From Gammaproteobacteria bacterium (GTDB taxonomy: Bacteria > Pseudomonadota > Gammaproteobacteria > GRL18): a stretch of 10,422 bases of DNA. A program made the position numbers and the translations under genes. The stretch spans positions 1 through 10,422 of the forward strand of contig DAOVUK010000063.1 of NCBI GenBank assembly GCA_030632625.1, written 5' to 3'. The notes below the pieces were generated by a model. That model did not search any database, was not told the origin of the DNA, and was given only the letters and a program-made list of their open reading frames with translations. Below, piece after piece: positions 1 to 10,422 of this stretch. Position 1 is the stretch's first letter. Each line of letters starts with the position of its first letter.

Positions 1-1
1 G

Positions 2-646
2 AAGTCTGAGCGGGTGAGAGTGTTAGAAAATGGTATTTATCACTCTTTTTCCAGAGTTTGCAGAACCAGTCCAACTCTGGATACCAGAGTATGGGTTGCT
101 TATTTCCAGAAGTGTCTGATTCAAGCATGGACTGGCCAATTTTTCATGCCGACAGCAAACAAAAAGCAGACAAAACAAAACTTCATAAAATCATCCAACA
201 CACAACCCGCTATAGTGATTGGCAATGGCCTGATAAAAAAAGTAAATAAACGCTATCAGAAACTTTTGAATGAAGATTTATGCCAATTTTATTACGGATC
301 CATCGCTAATCTACTACGAACAAAATACCGCAAGACTGATCCGATGTTAAACAATAAGGGTGTAAAGCGTATGCATCGTCTTGGAATTCATGCTATCGTA
401 CATGGTCATGTCAGCCAGACAACAGGGCAGAATATCAGTCTCCGTTCAGGTATGCTGCATTTTCAATGTGATGTTACATTAGATAGAAATTCAAGACAAA
501 AGGCAGGATTGGCTGAATTTGGTGCTGGCGTGACAAGCATCAGCCCAACAGGTAAAATTAAAGGGATCAGTACTGATTCTCCACAAGTAAAAATTTTTCA
601 ACCTGACAGAGTACGCTCTAATGTGGAGCAGCAAATTAATGAGTAA
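2..646 (+). CDS. Metallophosphoesterase-like protein, C-terminal part (GAK-type cluster), 5' end outside window
   Basis: The reading frame is open to the left edge, so this is the 3' part of a longer gene; the GTG at 14 is only the first start-like codon inside the window. The C-terminal half (about residues 115-195 counted from that GTG) carries HAIVHGHV, then a GQ..SLR.GM..F..DVTLDRNSR..AGL block and a GIST...VKIF tail. HGH fits the last metal-ligand motif (GHxH position) of calcineurin-like phosphoesterases. As I recall it, the CDxTLDRNSR block is typical of the phosphoesterase that accompanies amphi-Trp and CofD-like genes. The earlier ligand motifs (DxH, GDxxD, GNHD) are not visible and would have to lie upstream. 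The first 45 or so residues look atypical, so an upstream frameshift is possible. The 3' end overlaps the next gene by 8 bp (ATGAGTAA at 639-646), which implies translational coupling. The family call is from memory of motifs; the substrate is unknown. Confidence 0.6.
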   Translation, partial: KSERVRVLENGIYHSFSRVCRTSPTLDTRVWVAYFQKCLIQAWTGQFFMPTANKKQTKQNFIKSSNTQPAIVIGNGLIKKVNKRYQKLLNEDLCQFYYGSIANLLRTKYRKTDPMLNNKGVKRMHRLGIHAIVHGHVSQTTGQNISLRSGMLHFQCDVTLDRNSRQKAGLAEFGAGVTSISPTGKIKGISTDSPQVKIFQPDRVRSNVEQQINE

Positions 647-920
647 GGCAATGAAAAACAGTAAGTCAAATTTTCGCCATGAGTCTATACAGGATAATAA
701 ATCCATTCTGGCTATTTTAAAAGCCATTACCAAAGGTATTGAAAAAAATGAACTCACCTTTAGTGATGAAGAAGATACTATTATCATGCATCCTCGCGGT
801 CTATTAGCGCTTAAGGTCTCAGCCTCTCAGGATGGCAATGACAACCGTGTTAATATTCGCATCAAATGGCAAACTGAACCGGATAAGAAAAAACAAAAAT
901 CCAGTTTGAGCATCACCTGA
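639..920 (+). CDS. Amphi-Trp domain protein (GAK-type cluster)
   Basis: A small 93-residue protein. It begins, after a short basic leader, with FRHESIQDNKSI, followed by a helix and ..KGIEKNELTFSDEED, and ends in a strand of alternating hydrophobic and polar residues, VNIRIKW, with Trp at residue 77. That amphipathic strand closing with Trp, after an FRHES-type N-terminus, is the hallmark of the amphi-Trp domain. The domain has no known biochemical role; its recurrent neighbours are HprK-like kinases, ATP-grasp enzymes and CofD-like proteins. I chose ATG 639 over ATG 621 because it overlaps the upstream stop in the usual ATGAGTAA coupling arrangement, and GGAG at 625-628 lies 10 nt upstream. 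The C-terminus is a lysine-rich tail (PDKKKQK). The next gene starts 21 nt downstream, so the three genes form one transcription unit. Confidence 0.75.
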   Translation: MSKAMKNSKSNFRHESIQDNKSILAILKAITKGIEKNELTFSDEEDTIIMHPRGLLALKVSASQDGNDNRVNIRIKWQTEPDKKKQKSSLSIT

Positions 921-941
921 TATAAGGTAAATTGAGCATAA

Positions 942-2129
942 GTGAAAACAATCAATGTCACCCGAAGCGCGTCTATTCCTGATCCCATACGAATTAGCCG
1001 ATATCGTAAGGTTCCGGAACTCGGACCGAAAATTTTATTTTTCACTGGCGGCAGTGCACTCAATGGACTCAGCCAGCATTTAAAAAATTTTACTTATAAC
1101 TCCATTCATCTGGTCACACCATTTGATTCAGGCGGCAGCTCTGCCAAGTTACGCGATGCTTTTGCTATGCCGGCAATTGGCGACTTACGCAGTCGTATGG
1201 TTGCCCTGGCTGATGAAACAATCACCGGACACCCGGAAGTTTATCGTCTGTTTACTTATCGTCTATCCATGCATCAATCACAAAAAATACTCTTGCAGCA
1301 GCTCATGGCGATGGTTGAAGGAAACGATCCGTTAATCCAGGCTATTCCCAATCCTATGCGCCGGTTAATACGTAACCTGCTGGGATTTTTTACCCGGCAG
1401 ATGCCCAAAAATTTTGATCTGAAAGGCGCCAGTATTGGCAATCTGGCACTGGCTGGAGGCTACTTAAATAACCATAGGCATCTGGATCCGGTTATTTTCC
1501 TGTTTTCCAAGCTGGTCAATGTACAAGGTACTGTCCGGGCCATCATCAATGATGATCTCCACCTTGCGGCAGAACTCAAATCCGGAGAGATTCTGGTGGG
1601 ACAGCATCGAATGACAGGCAAGGAGGTCATGCCGATACAATCCAGAATCAAACATCTCATGCTGTCATCACATCCAGACAAATATGTGCCGGCCAAAGCC
1701 ATAATACGCAAAAAAAATCGTAAATTGATTCAAAATGCAGATTTAATCTGTTTCCCTCCGGGAAGTTTTTATTCAAGTTTAATGGCCAACCTTTTGCCGG
1801 AAGGTGTTATTTCTGCCATTGCCAGTAATAACAATCCAAAGGTATTTATTCCAAATCTCGGTAATGATCCAGAGCAGTTTGGCATGACACTCAGGGAAAG
1901 TATTGATTCACTCTTATCCATGATGAAACAAGCTTCACCCGCTGTATCAACTGATGCCTTGCTGAACTTCGTATTGCTTGATAGTAAGCATGGCAATTAT
2001 AACGGCTCGAACCTTGCAACGCTGAAAAAAAAGGGTATAGAAATTATTGATACCAGGCTGATATCACCTGAAAGTGCCCCTTATTACGATCCCGCTTTAC
2101 TTTCAAATGCACTACTTTCTCTGGTTTGA
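942..2129 (+). CDS. CofD/YvcK-like protein (GAK system CofD-like)
   Basis: A 395-residue member of the CofD/YvcK fold family. Motifs in order: a glycine-rich nucleotide loop FFTGGSALNG at about residues 33-42; TPFDSGGSSAKLRDAF (about 59-74) followed by PAIGDLRSRMVAL, matching the VTxxDDGGSSGRLR..GDIR region of YvcK; GASIGNLALAG (about 162-172), matching the HSIGNL loop; NADLICFPPGSFYSSLMANLLPEGV (about 265-289), matching the ADLI..GPGSLYTS..PNLLV.GI segment; and FIPNLGNDPEQFGMT. CofD is a 2-phospholactate transferase and YvcK binds UDP-sugars to control cell-wall and carbon metabolism. Members linked to amphi-Trp genes are uncharacterised, so the substrate cannot be stated. Start: GTG at 942, with AAGG at 924-927 and GAG at 934-936 upstream. 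It is the last gene of the cluster; a mobile-type repeat begins 30 bp after its stop. Confidence 0.8.
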   Translation: MKTINVTRSASIPDPIRISRYRKVPELGPKILFFTGGSALNGLSQHLKNFTYNSIHLVTPFDSGGSSAKLRDAFAMPAIGDLRSRMVALADETITGHPEVYRLFTYRLSMHQSQKILLQQLMAMVEGNDPLIQAIPNPMRRLIRNLLGFFTRQMPKNFDLKGASIGNLALAGGYLNNHRHLDPVIFLFSKLVNVQGTVRAIINDDLHLAAELKSGEILVGQHRMTGKEVMPIQSRIKHLMLSSHPDKYVPAKAIIRKKNRKLIQNADLICFPPGSFYSSLMANLLPEGVISAIASNNNPKVFIPNLGNDPEQFGMTLRESIDSLLSMMKQASPAVSTDALLNFVLLDSKHGNYNGSNLATLKKKGIEIIDTRLISPESAPYYDPALLSNALLSLV

Positions 2130-2158
2130 GATTCCTCCTTCTTCATGAGGCGTTTTTA

Positions 2159-2312
2159 TATACCCGTGATACTTGGAAATGCACCCCAAGGGCACTTCCT
2201 CCGGGGCGCAGCGAGGCATTTTGACTTAGAGCCGATTGAGTGTATAAGTACTACATGATTGAGGCTTTAAGTTAAAATAACGAAGTCTGCATTTTCAAGT
2301 ATCATGGGTATA
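2159..2312. mobile_element. MITE-like hairpin element with ~23-bp inverted ends and TA target duplication
   Basis: A 25-bp sequence at 2159-2183 reappears inverted at 2288-2312 with only two mismatches (tatacccgtgatacttgg.. against tatacccatgatacttga..). The outermost TA on each side can be read as a target duplication, leaving a 150-bp element at 2161-2310. Inside, 2218-2233 and 2263-2278 form a second inverted pair (attttgacttagagcc / ggctttaagttaaaat, 14 of 16), and a GC-rich patch (2184-2216, ccccaaggg...ccgggg) can fold locally. There is no coding capacity. Terminal inverted repeats with a TA duplication are the signature of non-autonomous elements moved by IS630/Tc1-type transposases. 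That assignment is inference; the inverted structure is directly visible. An intergenic palindromic repeat with a transcript role is the alternative. Confidence 0.7.
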
Positions 2313-2329
2313 AGAGACATGCTGCATTA

Positions 2330-2679
2330 TTAGCTGATAAACTTACCTTCACGCAATCGCTGAGCTTCCATTATTTCAATTTCATGTGCACCGGAAAACA
2401 CTAAGTCACTATCTGGAACAAAATCTAAATCCGGATTTAAACGTTCATATGTCACACTGTTTAAAATTGTCTTCATTGCATTTAAACGCGCCTTATATTT
2501 ATTATTAGAACGAATAATTGTCCAGGGTGTTGCAGCTGTATGGGTGTTTTTTAACATTTCATATTTAACATTAGTAAAATCATCCCAACGCTCCTGAGCC
2601 TGCACATCAATCTCAGAGAGCTTCCATTGTCTTAAGGGATCATGCTTACGCCGTTCAAACGCTTCGCCTGTTCTTCATT
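2330..2679 (-). pseudogene. Polyphosphate kinase 2 (PPK2) relic, C-terminal third, frameshifted
   Basis: Read on the minus strand, 2679-2330 encodes NEEQAKR, then after a one-base slip FERRKHDPLRQWKLSEID, then VQAQERWDDFTNVKYEMLK.THT...PWTIIRSNNKYKARLNAMK.ILN. This is the conserved C-terminal part of class I PPK2, which transfers phosphate between polyphosphate and nucleotides. The frame breaks at 2656-2660: the sequence has CAAAC (minus GTTTG) where one more base would join EEQAKR to FERRKHD. The catalytic N-terminal two thirds, with the Walker A and B motifs, are absent; upstream of NEEQ the sequence switches abruptly to unrelated coding sequence. The visible uninterrupted part is 2330-2653. 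It is therefore a gene remnant and cannot be functional as a kinase. A sequencing error could explain the single-base slip but not the missing N-terminus. Confidence 0.8.
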
Positions 2680-3105
2680 TCCTTATATCGGGTATTGGTC
2701 CGTAACATCTTTTTCATTTCATGATCATCAGCAAGAGGCATGCTTTCACCAAGTAAAATCAGATCAGGTACTCTTTGTGCAACACTATCCAAACAATCCT
2801 GTCCGGTAATAACTGTCACAAAAGAGATGCACTGAAGCTTACTTACTGCTCTGCTCAGATCATCCAGAGTCAATTTCGTATTTTTAGCAACACGGGATCT
2901 GATTGCAGTTCTGCGTTCTTCCGGCAGAGCAATCAAACCAATTTCACTTAAAATACCATCAGGACAAATCATGTCTTCAAAGGCATCACGGGTACCGAAA
3001 CTGGTGGGCGGGCCATAGATCTAAAAGAGACAGAAGCGGTTTTTTAATATGAATGGCAGTTAAACCACCAGAAAATGCAGACTGATATTTATTGCTAAAA
3101 TTCAT
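2655..3105 (-). pseudogene. Disrupted gene coupled to the PBP, ending in a degenerate receiver-like domain
   Basis: The ATG at 3105 follows the stop of the large upstream PBP gene directly (TGAATG), so this ORF was its operon partner. The first frame (MNFSNKYQSAFSGG..., 39 codons) stops at 2986-2988. Removing one base near 3018 would continue LLD into the second frame, YGPPTSFGTRDAFEDMICPDG..., which stays open to 2655. Its last 55 residues resemble a response-regulator receiver domain: VTVITGQDCLDSVAQ, then PDLILLGESMPL, then EMKKMLRTNTRY. The phospho-acceptor Asp of the usual LILLD motif is Gly, and the acidic N-terminal pocket is missing. At TRYKEM the receiver fold is cut and the next residues come from PPK2. 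The middle part (SEIGLIALPEERR..., LTLDDLSRAVSK) is not recognised. The receiver call is pattern-based and moderate. Confidence 0.5.
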
Positions 3106-6100
3106 TCAAAATAAATTTTTAAACAACTGATCCGAATCATCCATCAGCTTAGCTATTGGTTTAGCATTCTGGTGATTTTTAATTTTAAGGCGACTTTTAC
3201 CCGGCGATGAAGAAACCGAAGCCAGATGATGATGTTCTGTTTTGACATCATGTCTTGCAGCCAATTCAGTTTTCAATTCTGCAGCCGTTTTATTAGCAAC
3301 AATAGGACTAAGATGATCAGCAATCCGGGATAGAATTCTTACCGGAACTTTACTGGTAAAGTTATAACGCTCAATATCGCCTTCAGTGACACTCATGGTA
3401 ATACAGATCGCATATTTTGCTTTGCCCTCCCCACTATCCAGCACACTGAGCACGGCCGCAGAACGATTGATTGGCTTCTGGTTATATCGATTATCCCCGG
3501 TACCTGTTTTTGCGCCTGCTGACTGTACATATCGCATCAAAGGATGCCGGGACGCAAAAACAGCTGTACCCTTTTGTAAAACACCTGCCATTGCTTTTCT
3601 CACCACAATAGCAATGGCCCTGGGAATAATACGCTCCTGTTGATATTCAATCTTAAATGGTGTTTCAAATTCACTCCCCGGGGCCAGAATAATACGCTCA
3701 ATTGAAGAAATATTTTTTTCATGCAGACCATCATTTAACAAAGTTCCGGCCAGTTCAATCAATGACATAGGTGTATCACCAGAACTGCCTAAAACAACCG
3801 CATAAGAAGGCGACACCTTAAAAGGATAACCCAGCTTCTGCCATGCGGGTGTCACCCCTTTGCTAAAAGCCTGACGTTCCATATGAGTATACAAGGTATT
3901 CTTTATCCAGAATTTACTTGTTCTTAGCCAGTTTGATGTTTGCTCAATGATTCTTGCCTGCTCTACAGTAAGTGCATCAGACTCAGGCTCAGAGTATCGG
4001 CTATGCTGCTGGCGAACACGGGCAAGCAGCCATTTTTTTTCATAGTCAGTAATTCGCTTAAACCATGATGTCAGTCTGCGGTATTTCTCCAGTTCTTTAC
4101 TATAAGCGCTATTATACGATTTATTTTCAGAGTCTTTATCAACAGGCAAGTTCATTGTCTTGACAAATTCTCTGGCTCTGATAATAATTTCCCTGTTTGT
4201 TACCTCTTTCTTTTCATCAAGAGTCTCTTCAGCAAGATGTTCTTTTATAGTTTTCTCATCTGCAAGAGCAAAATCAGAAAAAGAGCTTTGAATACCTTCA
4301 ATAAAAAAATTCAAACCATCAAGATAAACTGCTTCTTCCTGTTTAACCGAATTATCGATGATTTTCTTTCTGACTGAATTTTTTTTGTCTGTCAAAATCG
4401 CTATTTTGTCATAACCAGACTGATCAATATAATAATCAACGACCTCGCGCATTAATCGCACAAAAGATACGTTAATTGATTCAGTCGTCATTTGCCATAG
4501 GTTAGGGTTTTTCCGATCATCACTTTTCTGATAGTTATGGAATTCATGCCAGCTTTCCCCGGTTAAAAATTTGCTCTCCGGATTTGCTGAAAATCGTCGT
4601 GACATGGCCCAGGCTAAAATTTGTTCCATTGTTGCCTGAGGGTATTTTTTAAGATAAGAAGCCAGCAGCCGTTTGATGGTCACAGATGACTTGCTATATT
4701 CTTTAAGCAAACTGGACTGCTTATATTGTTTACTGCCGGAATCCTTAAAAGTTGACGATAATAACTCTTGTTGTAAAAGCAGTGCTTCATCATGAATTAT
4801 CATCAGATAGTTGACCAGCACTCTGAGTTTAGCGGTTGAACCCCATTGAAAACGTCCCTGTTTTGCCGGGTTATAAACCACTTTTGACTGTGTGTCTGTA
4901 TTGGCCAGAATCTTCCAGTGACGCTCTGCATCTATTTCCAGTACGATGACACCATATTGAATCTGTTTTAATTCATCCAGACTGAGACTCTGCAGCAGAC
5001 CTTTCTGACGTCCCTGGACAAAGGGGGATTTTTGCGCGACACCAGTATACATATCATCTAAAATGCCGCGAATATCCTTTTCCAGTTGAGAGTCCGTGGT
5101 CATTTCGATAGCAACCGGCATATTATCAACCGTTTGTAAATTAATCTTCTTTGACTCTGCTTTACCTGATTTTCTGGCAACGGCCTGACGTATTAGATGA
5201 GTATAGTGATTGCGCGCACTTGAAGCCTCCCGGTGTAAGGCATAATCCAGTTTAAGGCGATGATTTTTCTGGGGCCGCCATTCCGGCTTCATTGCCCTGG
5301 CCTTCACATATAAGGCCGAATTAATTAATTGTTTTTTCTTTAGCCGTGACAAAAGTACATTGGCCTGTCTTGCTACTGCTTCAGGTGCCAGCAGCAATTG
5401 ACTGGGACGACGAATGGCTACAATTAAACTACAGATGTTTTTATAGGCCTGAGAACGAAGTTGCCTGTCTTTACTTTTTAACTGCCCATTCAATTCATCA
5501 ATGGTATAACCAAACCAGGCATAATAGGCTGCACCAAAACCCAATAACTCACCCGCATAAGATTTCGGCCCGCCAGCCATTGGTACGGTATTAAGAAAAT
5601 CAACCAGCGCTTTTTTAACCCGCCTGCCATTGTCACTTTCATACCCTGAGCCAGAGCCAGAAGCTGAGCTAATATCAGTGCTGCCGCCATATAAATGTAT
5701 GCCTGCACCAATCATTTGATTGATCTTATCGGTGATACTATGGGTTCTGCCGCCAGGTGTATTAGTAATTTTTTCCAGCGTTGTCATCAGGGTACTGCCG
5801 CCAGAATAGGAACCCTCGCCAGTGATCTTATATTGTACATACTCAGATGCACTCTTAATCATCCGGGGCCCTTCAATTAAATAATTGAGTTCAGCATCAC
5901 CTTTGTTTTTATCAAACACCAGATGCCGCAATTTATCATTTTCCCAGACTAATAGTGCTTTTAAAATAAAAGGTGAAATATGTTGAAAATCTTTAAATTG
6001 ATTAGGATGCTGATATTGATAAACTATTTTTTTATGACGATCCATTATTTTCAGGCCAGAAAACGCCTTACCCTGATAATGGTTAAAAGGGAAAATCCCC

Positions 6101-6888
6101 ATATCAAATAGCTTTTTTGCCTGGGGGGTTAAAACCAGGTGAGTCTCTTTGTCTACCTGAAATCCTGCATCATTTAACACATCAAACAACTGTGGATAAT
6201 AGGTCATACCGTCACGCTTCCAGCGGGGACTATCTGGAATGGGAATATCCCAACTTTGCGGCTTGCCTGGCATAATTTTTAATTGAGCCACTTTTTCAAC
6301 TTGAGCAGTCATATACCGAAAGCCGATTCCATAACGAATTTCTTCCCACATAATCAGCGTAACAAGTGCCAGGGCGATACAAGCGGCAAAAATACTGGTG
6401 TCTTTTTTTGCCAGAACATCCCATATCCGGACAAACAATTGAGGCACAAAAATAATCAAAAAGAGAGCAAAAATAAACGCCGGTTTTTCCGGCACAAAAA
6501 GATAATTCCAGTAAAAAACAATCACCGACAGAAAAATAGTCAGACTGGTAATTAGTAATCGATTCGGGCAAAAGAGCATCCATACCGACTGCTGATTACG
6601 TACCACGCCCTCATCCTGCAGCTCAAAAAGAGCAAAGTAATGCCAAACCATCTGAACGATAAAAATACATGACAGAAAGAGGCTCAGTTCTCCCTGTTTA
6701 AAACCTGCGGGTAATTGCCAAAAATACGAAATAAGCGCAACAACACCCATGCTCAATAACAATGATAGAAAAATAATACGTAAGAGCAGGTTGCCCAGCC
6801 AGAAGGAGGAACTTTTGTTTTGCTCAATATCACAAGAGTCGCAAGAATTATCAGCACCATTAAAGGCAGCACTAATGCTACTCGTCAT
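3106..6888 (-). CDS. Large divergent class A penicillin-binding protein (GT51-like plus transpeptidase) with polytopic N-terminus
   Basis: 1260 residues. Residues 30-185 contain about five hydrophobic helices (near 33-57, 68-88, 111-130, 136-155, 165-181), whereas class A PBPs normally have one. A GT51-like region follows: HISPFILKALLVWEND with candidate catalytic Glu316, GGSTLMTTLEKI at 363-374, FLNTVPMAGG at 431-440, and AYYAWFG. The E-D-R-F motif is altered to E-N-D-K, and a Gly/Ser-rich insert occurs at about 401-415. The transpeptidase region has S684-T-A-K687 (SxxK), S804-I-N806 (SxN) and K1127-T-G-T. SxN and KTG are about 320 residues apart because a charged, helical insertion occupies roughly 815-1015. 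It probably acts at the periplasmic face in peptidoglycan synthesis; glycosyltransferase activity is uncertain. Start ATG at 6888 has a strong AGGAAG ribosome site (6895-6900). It is translationally coupled to the broken ORF at 3105. Confidence 0.8.
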   Translation of the reverse strand: MTSSISAAFNGADNSCDSCDIEQNKSSSFWLGNLLLRIIFLSLLLSMGVVALISYFWQLPAGFKQGELSLFLSCIFIVQMVWHYFALFELQDEGVVRNQQSVWMLFCPNRLLITSLTIFLSVIVFYWNYLFVPEKPAFIFALFLIIFVPQLFVRIWDVLAKKDTSIFAACIALALVTLIMWEEIRYGIGFRYMTAQVEKVAQLKIMPGKPQSWDIPIPDSPRWKRDGMTYYPQLFDVLNDAGFQVDKETHLVLTPQAKKLFDMGIFPFNHYQGKAFSGLKIMDRHKKIVYQYQHPNQFKDFQHISPFILKALLVWENDKLRHLVFDKNKGDAELNYLIEGPRMIKSASEYVQYKITGEGSYSGGSTLMTTLEKITNTPGGRTHSITDKINQMIGAGIHLYGGSTDISSASGSGSGYESDNGRRVKKALVDFLNTVPMAGGPKSYAGELLGFGAAYYAWFGYTIDELNGQLKSKDRQLRSQAYKNICSLIVAIRRPSQLLLAPEAVARQANVLLSRLKKKQLINSALYVKARAMKPEWRPQKNHRLKLDYALHREASSARNHYTHLIRQAVARKSGKAESKKINLQTVDNMPVAIEMTTDSQLEKDIRGILDDMYTGVAQKSPFVQGRQKGLLQSLSLDELKQIQYGVIVLEIDAERHWKILANTDTQSKVVYNPAKQGRFQWGSTAKLRVLVNYLMIIHDEALLLQQELLSSTFKDSGSKQYKQSSLLKEYSKSSVTIKRLLASYLKKYPQATMEQILAWAMSRRFSANPESKFLTGESWHEFHNYQKSDDRKNPNLWQMTTESINVSFVRLMREVVDYYIDQSGYDKIAILTDKKNSVRKKIIDNSVKQEEAVYLDGLNFFIEGIQSSFSDFALADEKTIKEHLAEETLDEKKEVTNREIIIRAREFVKTMNLPVDKDSENKSYNSAYSKELEKYRRLTSWFKRITDYEKKWLLARVRQQHSRYSEPESDALTVEQARIIEQTSNWLRTSKFWIKNTLYTHMERQAFSKGVTPAWQKLGYPFKVSPSYAVVLGSSGDTPMSLIELAGTLLNDGLHEKNISSIERIILAPGSEFETPFKIEYQQERIIPRAIAIVVRKAMAGVLQKGTAVFASRHPLMRYVQSAGAKTGTGDNRYNQKPINRSAAVLSVLDSGEGKAKYAICITMSVTEGDIERYNFTSKVPVRILSRIADHLSPIVANKTAAELKTELAARHDVKTEHHHLASVSSSPGKSRLKIKNHQNAKPIAKLMDDSDQLFKNLF

Positions 6889-7250
6889 TTAACACTTCCT
6901 GTTCAAGTAAACCGGATCAATACCTGATAATTGATGATAAAGATAATGAAATAAATGGCATGTTGGTATGCAATGAAAGTAAGCAGAAAAATTGCATTAC
7001 AATCATTATTAAAATTAGGTGAGGATGATGAAATAATCAAGAAAATAACAAATTTATTCCTCTTAAAACGAGGACTGTTTGTTATTTTTCAGGGTACGTC
7101 ACAAAATTGTGACCATTCGCCTAAAGCGCCTACTGTTGGCAAACCCGGAGGCTTTGTGAACAACCGTTTTTAGCCGGGACAGGCTGCTGCTGAAACAGGT
7201 TTTTAAATTTTATTGTAACGGGCAAGTCTGGAAGATAAGCAAGAATGGAT
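6889..7250. other. Non-coding upstream region of the PBP gene, with dyad symmetry
   Basis: I see no convincing gene here. A 72-codon plus-strand frame at 6955-7173 has no recognisable motif and no good ribosome site. The part nearest the PBP gene is AT-rich; 7095-7205 is richer in GC and full of short complementary runs (aaagcgcct/aggcttt, cccgg/ccggg), so it may be a structured transcript or an old repeat. The region must contain the PBP promoter, but no clear -35/-10 pair stands out. Confidence 0.4.
7098..7113. promoter_or_regulatory. 16-bp dyad (GTCACAA-aa-TTGTGAC), possible operator
   Basis: Perfect 7-bp arms are separated by two bases. The site lies about 210 bp upstream of the PBP start codon, in otherwise gene-free DNA. 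The two-base spacer makes an RNA hairpin unlikely and a dimeric protein-binding site more plausible. It is not a CRP site, because the half-sites are in the opposite order with the wrong spacing. Its function is inferred from symmetry only. Confidence 0.3.
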
Positions 7251-7429
7251 GTAACTACTCAGCGTATTCATCTTTTACCACATAACTGCGTTGTTTTTGC
7301 CCTCTACCCTCAAGGGGCACCTAGAAAATGGTCACGTATTTGTATACGCTCACAGCGTCTGTGACAATTTAAAGAGAAGGACAAAAACGCCTTGTTCTGA
7401 GGCAAAATCTAAACACGCTGAATAGTTAC
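7251..7429. mobile_element. IS66-type MITE, 179 bp, with 8-bp target duplication
   Basis: The ends gtaactactcagcgt (7251-7265) and acgctgaatagttac (7415-7429) are inverted copies with 14 of 15 matches. Similarity between the arms continues inward, imperfectly, for about 55 bp (..cgtttttgtcc against ..gttgtttttgccc). Immediately outside, GAATGGAT occurs at 7243-7250 and again at 7430-7437, a clean 8-bp target duplication. Ends beginning GTAA with an 8-bp duplication are the known features of the IS66 family, so this is probably a non-autonomous derivative mobilised by an IS66 transposase. It has no ORF of its own. The right-hand duplication includes the last base of the neighbouring gene's stop codon, so the insertion landed at the gene's end without damaging it. 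Confidence 0.8.
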
Positions 7430-7436
7430 GAATGGA

Positions 7437-7778
7437 TTAACTATATTTTTTCATATTTTTACGTCGATTGCCGGCCTGTACAATCACCCCTTCTAAGGCA
7501 TCAATACCACTAATTTCTATGGTTTCATATAAATCATTAAGAGGCTGTAAAAAATATTTATCATCATGAATTCTTAATTGTCTGAAAATAAATTCACCTT
7601 CAACCTTGGCAATTACATAAGAACCATCTTTAACTACTGCTTCAGGATCAATAATAATCACTGTACCATGCTCAAATTCAGGTACCATGCTGTCTCCCAG
7701 CGCACGTAAAGCAAAGACTTCTTTAGCGCTGCAGCTGCCTTCAATCGGCGGCATTAAGCTTTCAGGTCTTTCTGACAT
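7437..7778 (-). CDS. S24 (LexA/UmuD-like) protein without DNA-binding domain
   Basis: 113 residues covering only the S24 peptidase-like fold. LRALGDSMVPEFEHGTVIIID at about 24-44 includes the nucleophile motif with Ser30 in GDSM; DGSYVIAKVEGEFIFRQL at 51-68 is followed by YFLQPLNDLYETIEI. In LexA and UmuD the general-base Lys sits in a TVK-R/K-L segment; here that position is Arg66 (IFRQL), so autocleavage is doubtful unless Lys58 or another residue substitutes. There is no helix-turn-helix and almost no leader before the fold, and a TAG directly before the ATG rules out a longer in-frame start. The ribosome site AAGTGAG lies 7 nt upstream. It could be a UmuD-like or phage-type regulator partner acting through protein contacts. 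The end of the gene carries a MITE insertion; tandem repeats lie 34-96 bp upstream. Confidence 0.75.
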   Translation of the reverse strand: MSERPESLMPPIEGSCSAKEVFALRALGDSMVPEFEHGTVIIIDPEAVVKDGSYVIAKVEGEFIFRQLRIHDDKYFLQPLNDLYETIEISGIDALEGVIVQAGNRRKNMKKYS

Positions 7779-7811
7779 CTATAAACTCACTTTAAAATAT
7801 TAATATGCAAT

Positions 7812-7874
7812 TGTTTTCTAAGAGCCTTCAGCTGTTTTCTAAGAGCCTTCAGCTGTTTTCTAAGAGCCTTCAGC
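7812..7874. repeat. Three perfect 21-bp tandem repeats
   Basis: The unit tgttttctaagagccttcagc occurs at 7812-7832, 7833-7853 and 7854-7874 without a single difference. Two turns of DNA per unit would place a bound protein on the same face each time, and the array lies 34-96 bp before the S24 gene start, so an operator array is possible. Perfect identity argues for recent expansion. Because the unit is a multiple of three, one minus-strand frame would read as a KALRKQL heptad three times, but no start codon supports its translation. Confidence 0.9.
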
Positions 7875-8028
7875 CAAATAAAATTTGCCGCTGTCGCTTT
7901 GCTAACATCAAAATAGCAAATAAGACGGTGGTAGAATTTTATGTTAGATAAGAGAAGCTTTAATAATAAATGAAAATCCAGTCAGCATCAAGATCAAATA
8001 GACTGTACTTCAGTATTCCGCACGGGAC

Positions 8029-8056
8029 GTAGAGACGTTGCATGCAACGTCTCTAC
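8029..8056. repeat. Perfect 28-bp palindrome
   Basis: Two 14-bp arms (gtagagacgttgca and its exact complement) abut with no spacer around a GCATGC core. There is no following T-run on either strand, so it is not an ordinary terminator. From memory, very similar GTAGAGACGTTGCATGCAACGTC palindromes are dispersed in many copies in cyanobacteria and some large sulfur bacteria; the similarity is a recollection, not a search. It is probably a dispersed palindromic element. Confidence 0.85.
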
Positions 8057-8093
8057 CATGGTATGGGAACAAGTGATTCACCGCGACACCAAT

Positions 8094-8124
8094 AAAAAAA
8101 GCCATTAGCTCAAATAAGAGCTGA
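8094..8124 (-). terminator. Probable Rho-independent terminator downstream of the pyrophosphatase relic
   Basis: On the minus strand a 7-bp stem, TCAGCTC...GAGCTAA (8124-8118 and 8111-8105, one G-T pair) with loop TTATTT, is followed after ATGGC by seven T residues (8100-8094). The spacer between stem and T-run is longer than ideal. A second small hairpin (AAGAC-TTTC-GTCTT in plus-strand sense, 8130-8143) precedes it. It would end transcription coming from 9115. Confidence 0.5.
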
Positions 8125-8141
8125 CTGATAAGACTTTCGTC

Positions 8142-8382
8142 TTACTTCATCAAGACAGACTTGTCGACAACGTCAACGTGCTCAACTTTCTTACAATGCC
8201 ACGTTTGCATCCGCGCCTGCTTCATCTTCCATTTGCAGCAGACCAATTGGGCGACACTGAATAACCGAGCCGAACTGCAGCGGCAGGGGCGTAACAACCA
8301 AAACATCAACGGCATCACCATCATCAGATAATGTATGCGGCACATAGCCGTAGTTACAGGGATAAACCATTGCAGTGCCAAT
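8142..8382 (-). pseudogene. ppa: Inorganic pyrophosphatase (family I) relic
   Basis: The minus-strand frame 8382-8191 reads [18 protein letters not shown], then [32 protein letters not shown] and [12 protein letters not shown], then a stop. This matches E. coli Ppa from about residue 48 to 107, including the Tyr of NYGY, the three Asp of the DGDxVDV motif (with P changed to A) and the two Asp of DEAGxDA; the following Lys104 is Asn. The N-terminal residues (equivalents of E20, K29, E31, R43) and the C-terminal YK pair are missing, and a TAA sits right before the fragment. Shifting frame after ANVAL gives KKVEHVDVVDKSVLMK, reminiscent of the DHIKDVNDLPELLK segment, ending at 8142 before the terminator. 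It is a truncated, frameshifted internal fragment and cannot be active. Confidence 0.85.
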
Positions 8383-8401
8383 TTAACTGCTGCCATAATT
8401 T

Positions 8402-9115
8402 TCAATTCTTTTTAATTTCCCTGGCAGCATATTGCCGATAGTATTTTTCCATAACATCCCTGACTGGCTGCGGATAATTAAGCGCCGTCATTTGGCCCAT
8501 ACCTTCGCTAAAAAATTGTTTTAAATCGTCCGGCAGATTGTGAATCAGAAATTGAAATGTCCTGTCCATCAAAGCGGGTTCATGGGTGCGAGTGGCAGTA
8601 ATAGCATAATTCAGTAATAAAACACGCCAGGGACGGCGGGGATCGCGATCATCCATATCATCCTGAATGGCCTGCTCGGTTGCATTGATGAGAATTTCAA
8701 TATTTGCCAGTAATTTTTTCAGTTCCAGCTGATCTCTGAGACGATTGGAAAGCGCTGCTATGAGATTAACAATAGGGGTAAGTTTAGAGATGGTGCCGCC
8801 AGACTTTGCAAACCAGAGACTGAACAGAAATAGAAATTCTTCAAAATAAGCAAAACTTTCCTGATGTTGTATTTGTGAGGAAAAGACCAGCAAACGATCA
8901 ATTAATAAAATCAGCTCGTTGCCGCGGGCATTAAATAATTCTATTTGAGTAGTATCGGATGAAATTTTTTCTGCACTGGATAAAAATTTGTCAATTTCAT
9001 CAAACGCCAGAAGCATATCATTATCTGAACGCCCCTGCTCTGCAAAAAATTGAGTCAGGCTGTCAGAACCTTTATGAAATATGGCAATGACATCTGACAA
9101 TTCATATTCTGACAT
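8402..9115 (-). CDS. Hypothetical helical protein, 237 residues
   Basis: I do not recognise this protein. It has no signal peptide or transmembrane helix and is predicted by eye to be almost wholly alpha-helical: an acidic N-terminal half (MSEYELSDVIAIFHKGSDS..., DEIDKFLSSAEK), a strongly hydrophobic helix at about 90-105 (FAYFEEFLFLFSLWFAKSGG) that looks like a buried core helix, and a basic end (EKYYRQYAAREIKKN). The ..DPRRPWRVLLLNYAITATRTHEPALMDRTFQFLIHNLP segment might be HEAT/TPR-like. ATG 9115 has only a weak ribosome site (GGGAT 7 nt upstream). Its stop at 8402 lies 20 bp before the pyrophosphatase relic, with which it probably shared a transcript. Length and clean coding suggest a real cytoplasmic protein. 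Confidence 0.7.
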   Translation of the reverse strand: MSEYELSDVIAIFHKGSDSLTQFFAEQGRSDNDMLLAFDEIDKFLSSAEKISSDTTQIELFNARGNELILLIDRLLVFSSQIQHQESFAYFEEFLFLFSLWFAKSGGTISKLTPIVNLIAALSNRLRDQLELKKLLANIEILINATEQAIQDDMDDRDPRRPWRVLLLNYAITATRTHEPALMDRTFQFLIHNLPDDLKQFFSEGMGQMTALNYPQPVRDVMEKYYRQYAAREIKKN

Positions 9116-9242
9116 GGCTGATCCCGGACATCATACTTGATGGTTTACTACTTCGATTCATGAATATATGAGGATATTTGCTTAGAATTCAATGTTACCC
9201 TTGTAATAATTACCGCTATTTTATTTAAAAGACCGATTACTA

Positions 9243-9271
9243 TTGAGATAGCGCTTGATTTAGCCTGCTAA
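9243..9271 (+). promoter_or_regulatory. Candidate sigma-70 promoter for the lipoprotein gene
   Basis: TTGAGA at 9243-9248 and TGCTAA at 9266-9271 are separated by 17 bp; a TGCTAAATA stretch could also act as an extended -10. The match is partial and unproven, but it is the best pair in the 229-bp gap (9116-9344) between the divergent genes, in which I see nothing else. Confidence 0.25.
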
Positions 9272-9344
9272 ATACATAAAAATCTAAGGACTGTCCGGGT
9301 TCGACTGGTTGGAAAAAGTATTCAAAACAATAAGGGATATTATC

Positions 9345-9911
9345 TTGCTTAGAATAAAAAAAACAGTTTCAGCATTCATCATTTCATGTTTGACCTTACT
9401 CCTGGTATCAGCCTGTGCAGAACTGGACAGCAGTAGTGCCATTAACCGCTTTCAAAAATCTGAAGATTTGTATCTCGCCTCTATGCGCTGGGGTGAATGG
9501 ACAAATGTACTCCAACTCACAAGAGACCGACCAGAAAAGCCCAGTGCTGAAAATTCTGAGAAATTGCAGCTAATGGCAGTAAAATCTGACCGCGATGAGC
9601 CTTCAGCAGAACAAGAGTCTTCAACTAATAAAAACCCCTCCTATAACGAACTTTTGAGCCATCTGGATACGATTAAGGTGACACATACTGAAGTCCTCAG
9701 TTCTGCACTGAGTGAAACTAAGGATACAGCTGAATCTCACATGATAATTGAATATCGTTTCGATACCAGTGTAAAAATTAATTCCATCCGCCATAAAGTT
9801 TCCTGGTGGCGCGATGAGAAAAGTGACAACTGGTTTACCGATACACCATTACCAAAAGAGTTTGATTTGCCAAAACGAAAAACCATTAAACTTTCACCAA
9901 AAAGATATTAG
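9345..9911 (+). CDS. Putative outer-membrane lipoprotein, unknown function
   Basis: The precursor is 188 residues: a basic n-region (LRIKK), a hydrophobic stretch and a lipobox V-S-A-C24, with Ala after the Cys, which favours the outer membrane. The mature part begins with AELDSSSAINRFQKSEDLYLASMRWGEW and has a Ser/Glu-rich low-complexity middle. It ends in a strand-rich segment with alternating charges, IEYRFDTSVKINSIRHKVSWWRDE...NWFTDTPLP. I recognise no family. I chose TTG 9345 over TTG 9309 because AAGGGA at 9332-9337 is an ideally spaced ribosome site and the result is a standard signal peptide; the longer form would add 12 residues with little ribosome-site support. It is monocistronic here, convergent with the next gene. 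Confidence 0.7.
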   Translation: MLRIKKTVSAFIISCLTLLLVSACAELDSSSAINRFQKSEDLYLASMRWGEWTNVLQLTRDRPEKPSAENSEKLQLMAVKSDRDEPSAEQESSTNKNPSYNELLSHLDTIKVTHTEVLSSALSETKDTAESHMIIEYRFDTSVKINSIRHKVSWWRDEKSDNWFTDTPLPKEFDLPKRKTIKLSPKRY

Positions 9912-9933
9912 GCTTTATAACATTCAACTCCTC

Positions 9934-9955
9934 TGCAGGGAGAACTTTCCCTGCA
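9934..9955. other. Hairpin between convergent genes
   Basis: A perfect 8-bp stem, TGCAGGGA / TCCCTGCA, with a 6-base loop, lies 23 bp after the lipoprotein stop. It is followed by AAAAG on the plus strand and has no T-run on either strand, so intrinsic termination is not established. It could still act as a transcript-stabilising or Rho-related structure for either convergent gene. Confidence 0.45.
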
Positions 9956-10005
9956 AAAGAGATGAGGCAGAACTTCAGGCGAAAGGTGTTCTTAAATTCC
10001 CTTCT

Positions 10006-10422
10006 TTATTTAGCAGGTGATGTCTGTCCCATTGCCGGATAAAAAACCAATTTGAAGGTACCCGCTTCTTTATCAAAATATTTTCCGGCAAACATACCTT
10101 CACGAAGCGTCTCAAGTGAATCTGCGTTAAAATAAATACGTTCCAGCAAATGCAGTTTATTGCCATCTTTACGATTTAGATTATATTGAAACTGAACCAG
10201 ACCATTATCAATATCCAGCAGTGTATAATTCACATTAAATGGATGGCTGTCGAGATTATAACTTTGTGAACGAAGGCCTTGTTTCACCTGAGGAATTAAT
10301 ACCGGACGAATCATTTGAAAACCAAACTTCGGCACCAGAGTATCCTGTACAAATCGTTCACTGTCTAAACCACTCACATTAAAGTCACCCTTTTTATTTT
10401 CATCAAAGATAAATTTAACATC
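10006..10422 (-). CDS. Hypothetical protein, C-terminal part, 5' end outside window
   Basis: The minus-strand frame is open from the right edge (DVKFIFDENKKGDFNV...) to the stop at 10006, giving at least 138 residues. An internal GTG at 10377 is not a likely start because coding-quality sequence continues upstream of it. The visible part is rich in alternating hydrophobic strands (FNVNYTLLDIDNGLVQFQYNLNR, TFKLVFYPAMGQ) and polar turns, consistent with a beta-rich soluble or periplasmic domain. No motif is recognised, and the N-terminus that might carry a signal peptide lies beyond the window. It converges on the lipoprotein gene with a 94-bp gap. Confidence 0.65.
   Translation of the reverse strand, partial: DVKFIFDENKKGDFNVSGLDSERFVQDTLVPKFGFQMIRPVLIPQVKQGLRSQSYNLDSHPFNVNYTLLDIDNGLVQFQYNLNRKDGNKLHLLERIYFNADSLETLREGMFAGKYFDKEAGTFKLVFYPAMGQTSPAK

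Follow-up and report, generated by a model that had tools for sequence, protein, structure and literature searches.

A GAK gene locus split between two contigs of a gammaproteobacterial genome, with one gene broken and a possible link to phosphate

Genes of the locus

The window analysed here is the complete contig DAOVUK010000063.1 (positions 1 to 10,422 of the forward strand, 10,422 nucleotides; contig C138 in our numbering) of the gammaproteobacterial assembly GCA_030632625.1 (genome G000; 3.36 Mb, 533 contigs, 81.6% complete), and the contig begins at window base 1. Its 5' part carries genes of the GAK system, which is already named in public annotation (NCBIfam TIGR04354, TIGR04355, TIGR04356 and TIGR04357). 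A functional study of GAK was not found in the open-access literature searched, in line with the initial annotation of this DNA, which knew of no biochemical role. That annotation described three genes in one unit; the following features were found in their place.

942..2129, plus strand: GAK CofD-like protein of 395 amino acids with a GTG start; TIGR04357 539.5 bits (cut-off 340), PF01933 124.2 bits
651..920, plus strand: amphi-Trp domain protein of 89 amino acids; TIGR04354 62.5 bits (cut-off 31), PF20068 30.4 bits
58..243, plus strand: N-terminal remnant of a phosphoesterase, matching residues 7-65 of the 443-residue protein of genome G004 (49% identity, E 7.5e-11)
224..646, plus strand: C-terminal remnant of the phosphoesterase in another frame; 224-607 matches residues 309-436, after which the frame runs to the stop
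231..243, plus strand: deletion junction, an A-rich run in which the two remnants overlap

The CofD-like and amphi-Trp proteins passed the curated cut-offs of their GAK families. The ATP-grasp protein (444.8 bits, TIGR04356 cut-off 300) and the HprK-related kinase B, HprK-B (322.3 bits, TIGR04355 cut-off 200), both expected by the initial annotation upstream of base 1 (within about 10 kb), were present in the same genome and adjoin each other on another contig, C159. All four named families were thus over cut-off in G000, half of them in the window and half on C159, and membership in the GAK system is near certain. The window holds part of a genuine GAK locus that the assembly has divided and in which one gene is broken. 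It differs from the named system in lying on two contigs, in the deleted phosphoesterase and in the XXXCH family, which was not over cut-off. The family scans returned no GAK-named model for the PhoU-kinase, the histidine phosphatase or the phosphoesterase.

On C159, genes for the PhoU-kinase, ATP-grasp, HprK-B, SixA-NUDIX and histidine phosphatase follow each other in this order on one strand. All five are full length, and the contig ends about 0.3 kb past the histidine phosphatase. In G004, a genome of the same genus, the order is PhoU-kinase, ATP-grasp, HprK-B, histidine phosphatase, a free-standing PhoU gene, phosphoesterase and amphi-Trp, followed by an MgtE-type transporter; the genes from ATP-grasp to amphi-Trp fit into about 5.4 kb of a single strand. 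No SixA-NUDIX gene was found in the GAK run of G004 and no CofD gene in its genome, and two GAK gene orders coexist in the genus. Based on the gene order of G004, the likely order in G000 is C159 followed by the window, and the latter has a dispersed repeat at its beginning.

The amphi-Trp family scores were computed on an open reading frame starting at 621; judged from relatives, the family start is the ATG at 651. With this start the gene does not overlap the open reading frame at 2-646, from which it is separated by 4 bp, and CofD follows after another 21 bp. Of the overlapping or tightly spaced plus-strand unit described at first, the tight spacing was retained and the overlap with amphi-Trp was not. 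The Trp that had been said to end the signature strand was invariant in 18 of 18 aligned rows (window row counted) and forms the end of the final strand in the predicted model, which comprises one helix and four strands at a mean predicted local distance difference test score (pLDDT) of 86. A structure search returned no convincing structural relative of this predicted fold. Gilvimarinus agarilyticus and Sedimenticola are named sources of amphi-Trp relatives.

A broken phosphoesterase gene

The claim of a phosphoesterase gene at 2-646 has to be revised. No NCBIfam family matched the open reading frame at E ≤0.1, and no Pfam match reached its cut-off, because this frame is made up of two out-of-frame remnants of one phosphoesterase. 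Since the remnants lie in different frames, its first ~75 codons are a wrong-frame reading. The C-terminal remnant shares 74% identity (216 bits) with the G004 phosphoesterase, and the two-frame homology to this protein together with the family scans ruled out an intact gene. The middle ~245 residues of the calcineurin-like phosphoesterase are gone and with them all motifs but the last: DxH, GGDxxDKG, GNHD, HAG and GH were invariant in 15 full-length relatives, and the window keeps the late GH alone. When G000 was searched with the 443-residue G004 protein, no piece beyond the two in the window was found at E ≤0.001. In the G004 gene, A-rich runs flank both ends of the stretch missing from the window, which would fit a slippage deletion.

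The CofD-like protein and its ligand

The CofD-like protein scored far over the GAK model against which the initial annotation had proposed to check it, and the glycine-rich and GGSS motifs read there were recovered as an N-terminal GGS loop, FTGGSALN at residue 34, and as FDSGGSSAKLR at residue 61. The named sources of its relatives include a Lucinoma symbiont, a Thiotrichaceae bacterium and Thiogranum, which suggests that the host is a sulphur-oxidising gammaproteobacterium.

One way to understand the protein is as a member of the GlmR/YvcK type that serves the cell envelope as a uridyltransferase or as a UDP-sugar sensor, with an incidental position beside GAK genes. Its nearest solved relatives by sequence are indeed the YvcK structures 2ppv, 2hzb and 2o2z, but it missed the cut-off of the YvcK/GlmR model TIGR01826 (116.8 against 196 bits). 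Residue positions were transferred by manual counting on a structure-sequence alignment. For GlmR, D40, D41 and N198 are reported as catalytic residues (PMC10128056). The equivalent of D40 is D62, kept in 29 of 29 rows of alignment A7, and that of N198 is N283, kept in 28 of 29; both were present in all eight CofD_A rows of alignment A2. The second Asp of the trio, D41, is replaced by Ser in all 29 A7 rows. Of the residues given for UDP-N-acetylglucosamine (UDP-GlcNAc) in Bacillus subtilis YvcK/GlmR (PMC5482804), Y265 and R301, the latter is Tyr in the window protein and Arg in 2 of 29 A7 and 3 of 11 A2 rows, and the region around Y265 was not alignable. According to PMC10128056, Y265 is also missing from the Listeria GlmR, so its loss alone says little. 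The changed residues at the D41 and R301 positions indicate that the CofD-like protein is probably an enzyme with a ligand other than UDP-GlcNAc.

The genomic distribution bears on the same question in both directions. Among 398 Pseudomonadota genomes, CofD was over cut-off in six, five of which have the GAK ATP-grasp (hypergeometric 1.5e-7), and among 24 family genomes all seven with a CofD match were among the 12 with ATP-grasp over cut-off (hypergeometric 0.0023; three of the seven CofD proteins over the TIGR04357 cut-off, four below); related genomes are not independent, so these p-values overstate the association. On the other hand, in five CofD-bearing genomes (two Pseudovibrio, one Neptuniibacter and two Marinobacterium, some of them incomplete) none of ATP-grasp, HprK-B and amphi-Trp passed its cut-off; weaker ATP-grasp matches of up to 88.5 bits, against a cut-off of 300, were present in four of the five. 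The CofD of three of the five was scored, and all passed TIGR04357 (loci L005, L010 and L012); with 546.3 bits, that of L005 exceeds the window protein itself. Passing TIGR04357 is therefore insufficient on its own for membership in the GAK system.

Within one genus, G066 (L105) and G074 (L089) have the CofD gene and its flanks in common at 70-75% identity, and the stretch from CofD to the next gene measures 0.37 kb in G066 and 7.8 kb, including the GAK block, in G074. Hence the block came or went as a unit while CofD stayed. G066 has no ATP-grasp; HprK-B and amphi-Trp were not searched genome-wide there. CofD lay beside the operon in just 2 of 12 wider loci, defined below, and did not prove to be the constant member of the unit for which it had been taken. 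CofD is an optional GAK partner, co-occurring with GAK and also standing alone. In G066, as in the loci of Pseudovibrio, Neptuniibacter and Marinobacterium, CofD_A is separated from other GAK genes, which would agree with a cell-envelope GlmR/YvcK function. Given the Ser at the D41 position, the loss of the R301 and Y265 features, the low YvcK score and a co-occurrence with GAK above chance, we consider that function rather unlikely.

Longer CofD-like proteins (590-603 amino acids; L025:8666-10468, L026:9111-10883 and L027:3274-5085) occur in GAK operons and score below the TIGR04357 cut-off. Three of the four below-cut-off proteins of the family genomes, those of G007, G011 and G016, are of this longer kind; they adjoin GAK genes and have an extra N-terminal part that appeared hydrophobic by eye.

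The GAK core in other genomes

The GAK ATP-grasp was found in 14 of the 398 Pseudomonadota genomes at E ≤1e-60, 13 of them over cut-off and G000 counted. One wider locus was chosen by its ATP-grasp gene from each of the other 13 genomes, and 12 were used for core counts; the remaining one, L098, holds a partial ATP-grasp and HprK-B alone. PhoU-kinase, HprK-B and phosphoesterase were each present in 12 of 12 loci, the histidine phosphatase in 11 and amphi-Trp in 10 (in L093 beyond four other open reading frames), while SixA-NUDIX occurred in five and a separate NUDIX gene in two. The GAK core thus consists of PhoU-kinase, ATP-grasp, HprK-B, histidine phosphatase, phosphoesterase and amphi-Trp. 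The XXXCH family, which the initial annotation had proposed to look for upstream, was rejected as a part of this GAK type: it was over cut-off in none of 25 genomes bearing the GAK ATP-grasp, and its best score in G000 was 21.7 bits against a cut-off of 40.

Genes for ApaH-type diadenosine tetraphosphatases adjoin the operon in 3 of the 13 loci (L092:9729-10607, L095:4918-5739 and L097:4933-5754). The first two were confirmed by family scan and the third by sequence likeness; L095 and L097 are from one genus.

Neighbouring features and selection on the locus

The following elements lie around the GAK genes of the window.

4..105, plus strand: dispersed repeat at the beginning of the contig; the first codons of the phosphoesterase remnant fall within it
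2159..2312, no strand assigned: element resembling a miniature inverted-repeat transposable element (MITE), which carries 25-nt terminal inverted repeats and separates the CofD gene from the PPK2 tail
2330..2641, minus strand: C-terminal tail of a polyphosphate kinase 2 (PPK2) gene, 103 of its 312 residues, facing the GAK genes in convergent orientation

Copies of the repeat, 76-77% identical, were found on contigs C18 and C517 of G000. The genome contains 27 pieces that match the MITE-like element, and 12 of these, the window copy among them, measure at least 89 bases. The PPK2 tail (PF03976 54.5 bits) is 80% identical to the PPK2 of G008, and two near-full copies of the same PPK2 type are found elsewhere in G000.

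Two truncated genes and a MITE-like element around amphi-Trp and CofD could be taken as signs of a dying fragment, in which the truncated phosphoesterase and PPK2 and a CofD rearranged next to the MITE no longer form a working system; in the nearest relatives, G008 and G012, CofD also lies on contigs (9.8 and 5.0 kb) without GAK genes. This is unlikely in view of the five full-length genes on C159 and of the low ratios of non-synonymous to synonymous substitution rates (dN/dS), which were 0.09 for CofD (against G012, dS 1.2), 0.088 for amphi-Trp (against G004, dS 1.6), 0.047 for ATP-grasp and 0.067 for HprK-B (both against G004); with dS from 1.2 to 2.8 overall the ratios are rough. For CofD and amphi-Trp, at dS above 1, they suggest purifying selection. 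We read the window as a GAK locus that is still under selection and has a damaged 3' half.

Further downstream on the minus strand, a receiver-domain-like open reading frame adjoins the truncated PPK2 (2655-2972; 14.9 bits, under the cut-off of 30.2). A protein of 1260 amino acids at 3106-6888 showed a weak transglycosylase match (19.2 bits, cut-off 27), and a 113-residue peptidase S24-like protein (70.1 bits) is encoded at 7437-7778.

Possible function of the GAK system

The PhoU-kinase matched APH profiles in 16 of 16 proteins and the PhoU profile PF01895 in 12 of 16 at E ≤0.01. In the C159 protein both matches, PhoU with 38.7 bits and APH with 29.8 bits, lie in one chain, which sets the GAK fusion apart from the PhoU proteins and APH kinases that it resembles. 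Its best match in the PDB is a solved PhoU (E 3.5e-10, profile positions 7-225), and the catalytic loop HGDxNxDN and the IDxHR motif were kept in all 16 proteins. The P-loop GGGKST and the NDR motif of HprK-B were likewise kept in 17 of 17. The C159 ATP-grasp is a RimK-like enzyme by sequence: LysX and RimK are its nearest PDB sequences, and its best NCBIfam match outside GAK is MptN (162.4 bits, cut-off 350), followed by the RimK family (122.4 bits, below the rimK_fam cut-off of 143.4) and LysX. It differs from these ligases in that its group has SGG for the RGG of RimK, EVS for ExN and a KPLxSTKARGM loop, all in 17 of 17 proteins. These replacements of RGG and ExN indicate that the acceptor or the chemistry of the GAK ATP-grasp is probably altered. 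Each of the phosphoesterase, histidine phosphatase and NUDIX domains is of a phosphohydrolase type, the histidine phosphatases of GAK being matched by the branch 1 family.

An operon that encodes both kinases and phosphohydrolases suggests that a phosphorylated small molecule is turned over in a reversible cycle. Our preferred explanation, with a probability of about 0.42, is a cycle, linked to phosphate, in which GAK may build up and break down a small phosphorylated metabolite. The PhoU-kinase, with a PhoU-like domain of ~220 residues and an APH-type small-molecule kinase, would phosphorylate the metabolite; the HprK-type P-loop kinase could also do so, or HprK-B might phosphorylate a partner protein instead. 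The RimK-like ATP-grasp with its changed motifs would then ligate the metabolite or phosphorylate it further, and the histidine phosphatase, NUDIX and phosphoesterase proteins would break it down. Amphi-Trp may be a small accessory or regulatory subunit, and the CofD-like protein a putative optional branch enzyme, a nucleotidyl- or phospho-transferase of YvcK/GlmR family fold with a different ligand. Through the PhoU domain, phosphate status might gate the cycle. In G000 the phosphoesterase step would be lost from the locus, so that the flux might run in one direction or depend on the histidine phosphatases.

Phosphate is pointed to by the PhoU domain of the kinase and by several neighbouring genes. 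Apart from the free-standing PhoU gene in the G004 operon, a Pst-like transporter set and two PhoU genes precede HprK-B on the same strand in G012 (L066:6838-13891); the ATPase and binding protein of this set were checked by Pfam, and its two membrane proteins are Pst-like by likeness alone. PPK2 is convergent with the GAK operon in G008, and PPK2 tails are present in the window and in G015 (a 47-residue match near the contig end).

Several observations weigh against this explanation. The mechanism is deduced from gene content, with which the initial proposal of a small-molecule modification via phosphorylated intermediates is also consistent. Membership in the ATP-grasp group with changed motifs fails to separate a ligase from a kinase. 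Free-standing PhoU genes, Pst-like sets and PPK2 next to GAK are confined to the genus of G000 and were not seen in the 13 wider loci by hidden Markov model scan, the exception being PstB-model matches to two ABC ATPases in L090; PstB-model matches outside L066 were taken, from length and setting, as other ABC ATPases and were not counted as a nearby Pst gene. The link between C159 and the window is inferred from their shared genome and the synteny with G004. Since G000 is fragmented and 82% complete, an assembly error could also account for the loss within the phosphoesterase gene. The CofD occurrences described above count here as well, namely the five genomes without the other GAK genes over cut-off, G066 without ATP-grasp, G004 without CofD and the rarity of CofD beside the operon.

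RimK and HprK relatives act on proteins, and LysX and RimK are the nearest PDB matches of the ATP-grasp. GAK might accordingly modify a protein or peptide by a RimK-like tail addition and an HprK-like serine phosphorylation. Amphi-Trp is the sole candidate substrate gene that recurs in the mapped core, and small molecules are the better match for an APH-type kinase and for operons that, in 11 of the 12 wider loci, encode two or more phosphohydrolase proteins, which makes a protein or peptide substrate improbable.

The Pfam CofD domain of the window protein recalls CofD, the 2-phospho-L-lactate transferase of F420 synthesis, from which it differs in lacking a match to TIGR01819 at E ≤0.1; the F420 partner CofH passed its cut-off in 3 of the 17 genomes that bear CofD and gave no match above it in G000 (82% complete), and F420 synthesis was rejected as a general role of the CofD-like proteins. 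That GAK makes an F420-like cofactor, with the CofD-like transferase and a CofF/MptN-like ATP-grasp that adds glutamate, would agree with the MptN match and a weak CofF match (35.7 bits) of the ATP-grasp copy in G007, and is very unlikely given the scarcity of CofH, which is needed for the deazaflavin, the absence of RGG and ExN from the ATP-grasp and the position of CofD beside the operon in so few loci.

By analogy, GAK might be a bacterial counterpart of the eukaryotic phosphate signalling by inositol pyrophosphates, with the ATP-grasp as a small-molecule polyphosphate or pyrophosphate kinase and not an amino-acid ligase. In Vip1/PPIP5K, a phosphatase domain thought to remove the groups is joined to the ATP-grasp kinase. 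In the GAK system, histidine phosphatases and NUDIX proteins would remove the groups, and the PhoU-gated kinase would couple the signal to phosphate; the basis for this is the loss of RGG and ExN in 17 of 17 ATP-grasp proteins, the histidine phosphatase and often NUDIX in the operon, and the PhoU-kinase fusion. Vip enzymes are described as a RimK/ATP-grasp kinase plus a histidine acid phosphatase (PMC4325660). The structure of Asp1 resembles RimK among others, and Asp1 controls the inositol pyrophosphate read by the phosphate regulon of fission yeast (PMC9765450). The GAK phosphatases belong to branch 1 and are not acid phosphatases, and no PPIP5K was among 10 PDB sequence matches of the GAK ATP-grasp, so that such a resemblance would be a convergence. 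We regard it as highly improbable.

A defence system was dismissed, as seven of eight proteins had no PADLOC match at E ≤0.01 and the sole match was a weak one (17.7 bits) to the NUDIX part of SixA-NUDIX.

Implications

Two cautions for annotation follow from this locus. Proteins that earn the label "GAK system CofD-like protein" also occur where none of the other three NCBIfam GAK families is over cut-off, and the phosphoesterase of the window, as assembled, is not a working gene. For the family as a whole the parts list is sharpened: PhoU-kinase, histidine phosphatase and phosphoesterase are as steady as the named GAK genes, and CofD is optional. The site of the GAK block is filled in one species and empty in another of the same genus, and the hypothesis of a phosphate-linked GAK system can be tested in its carriers.

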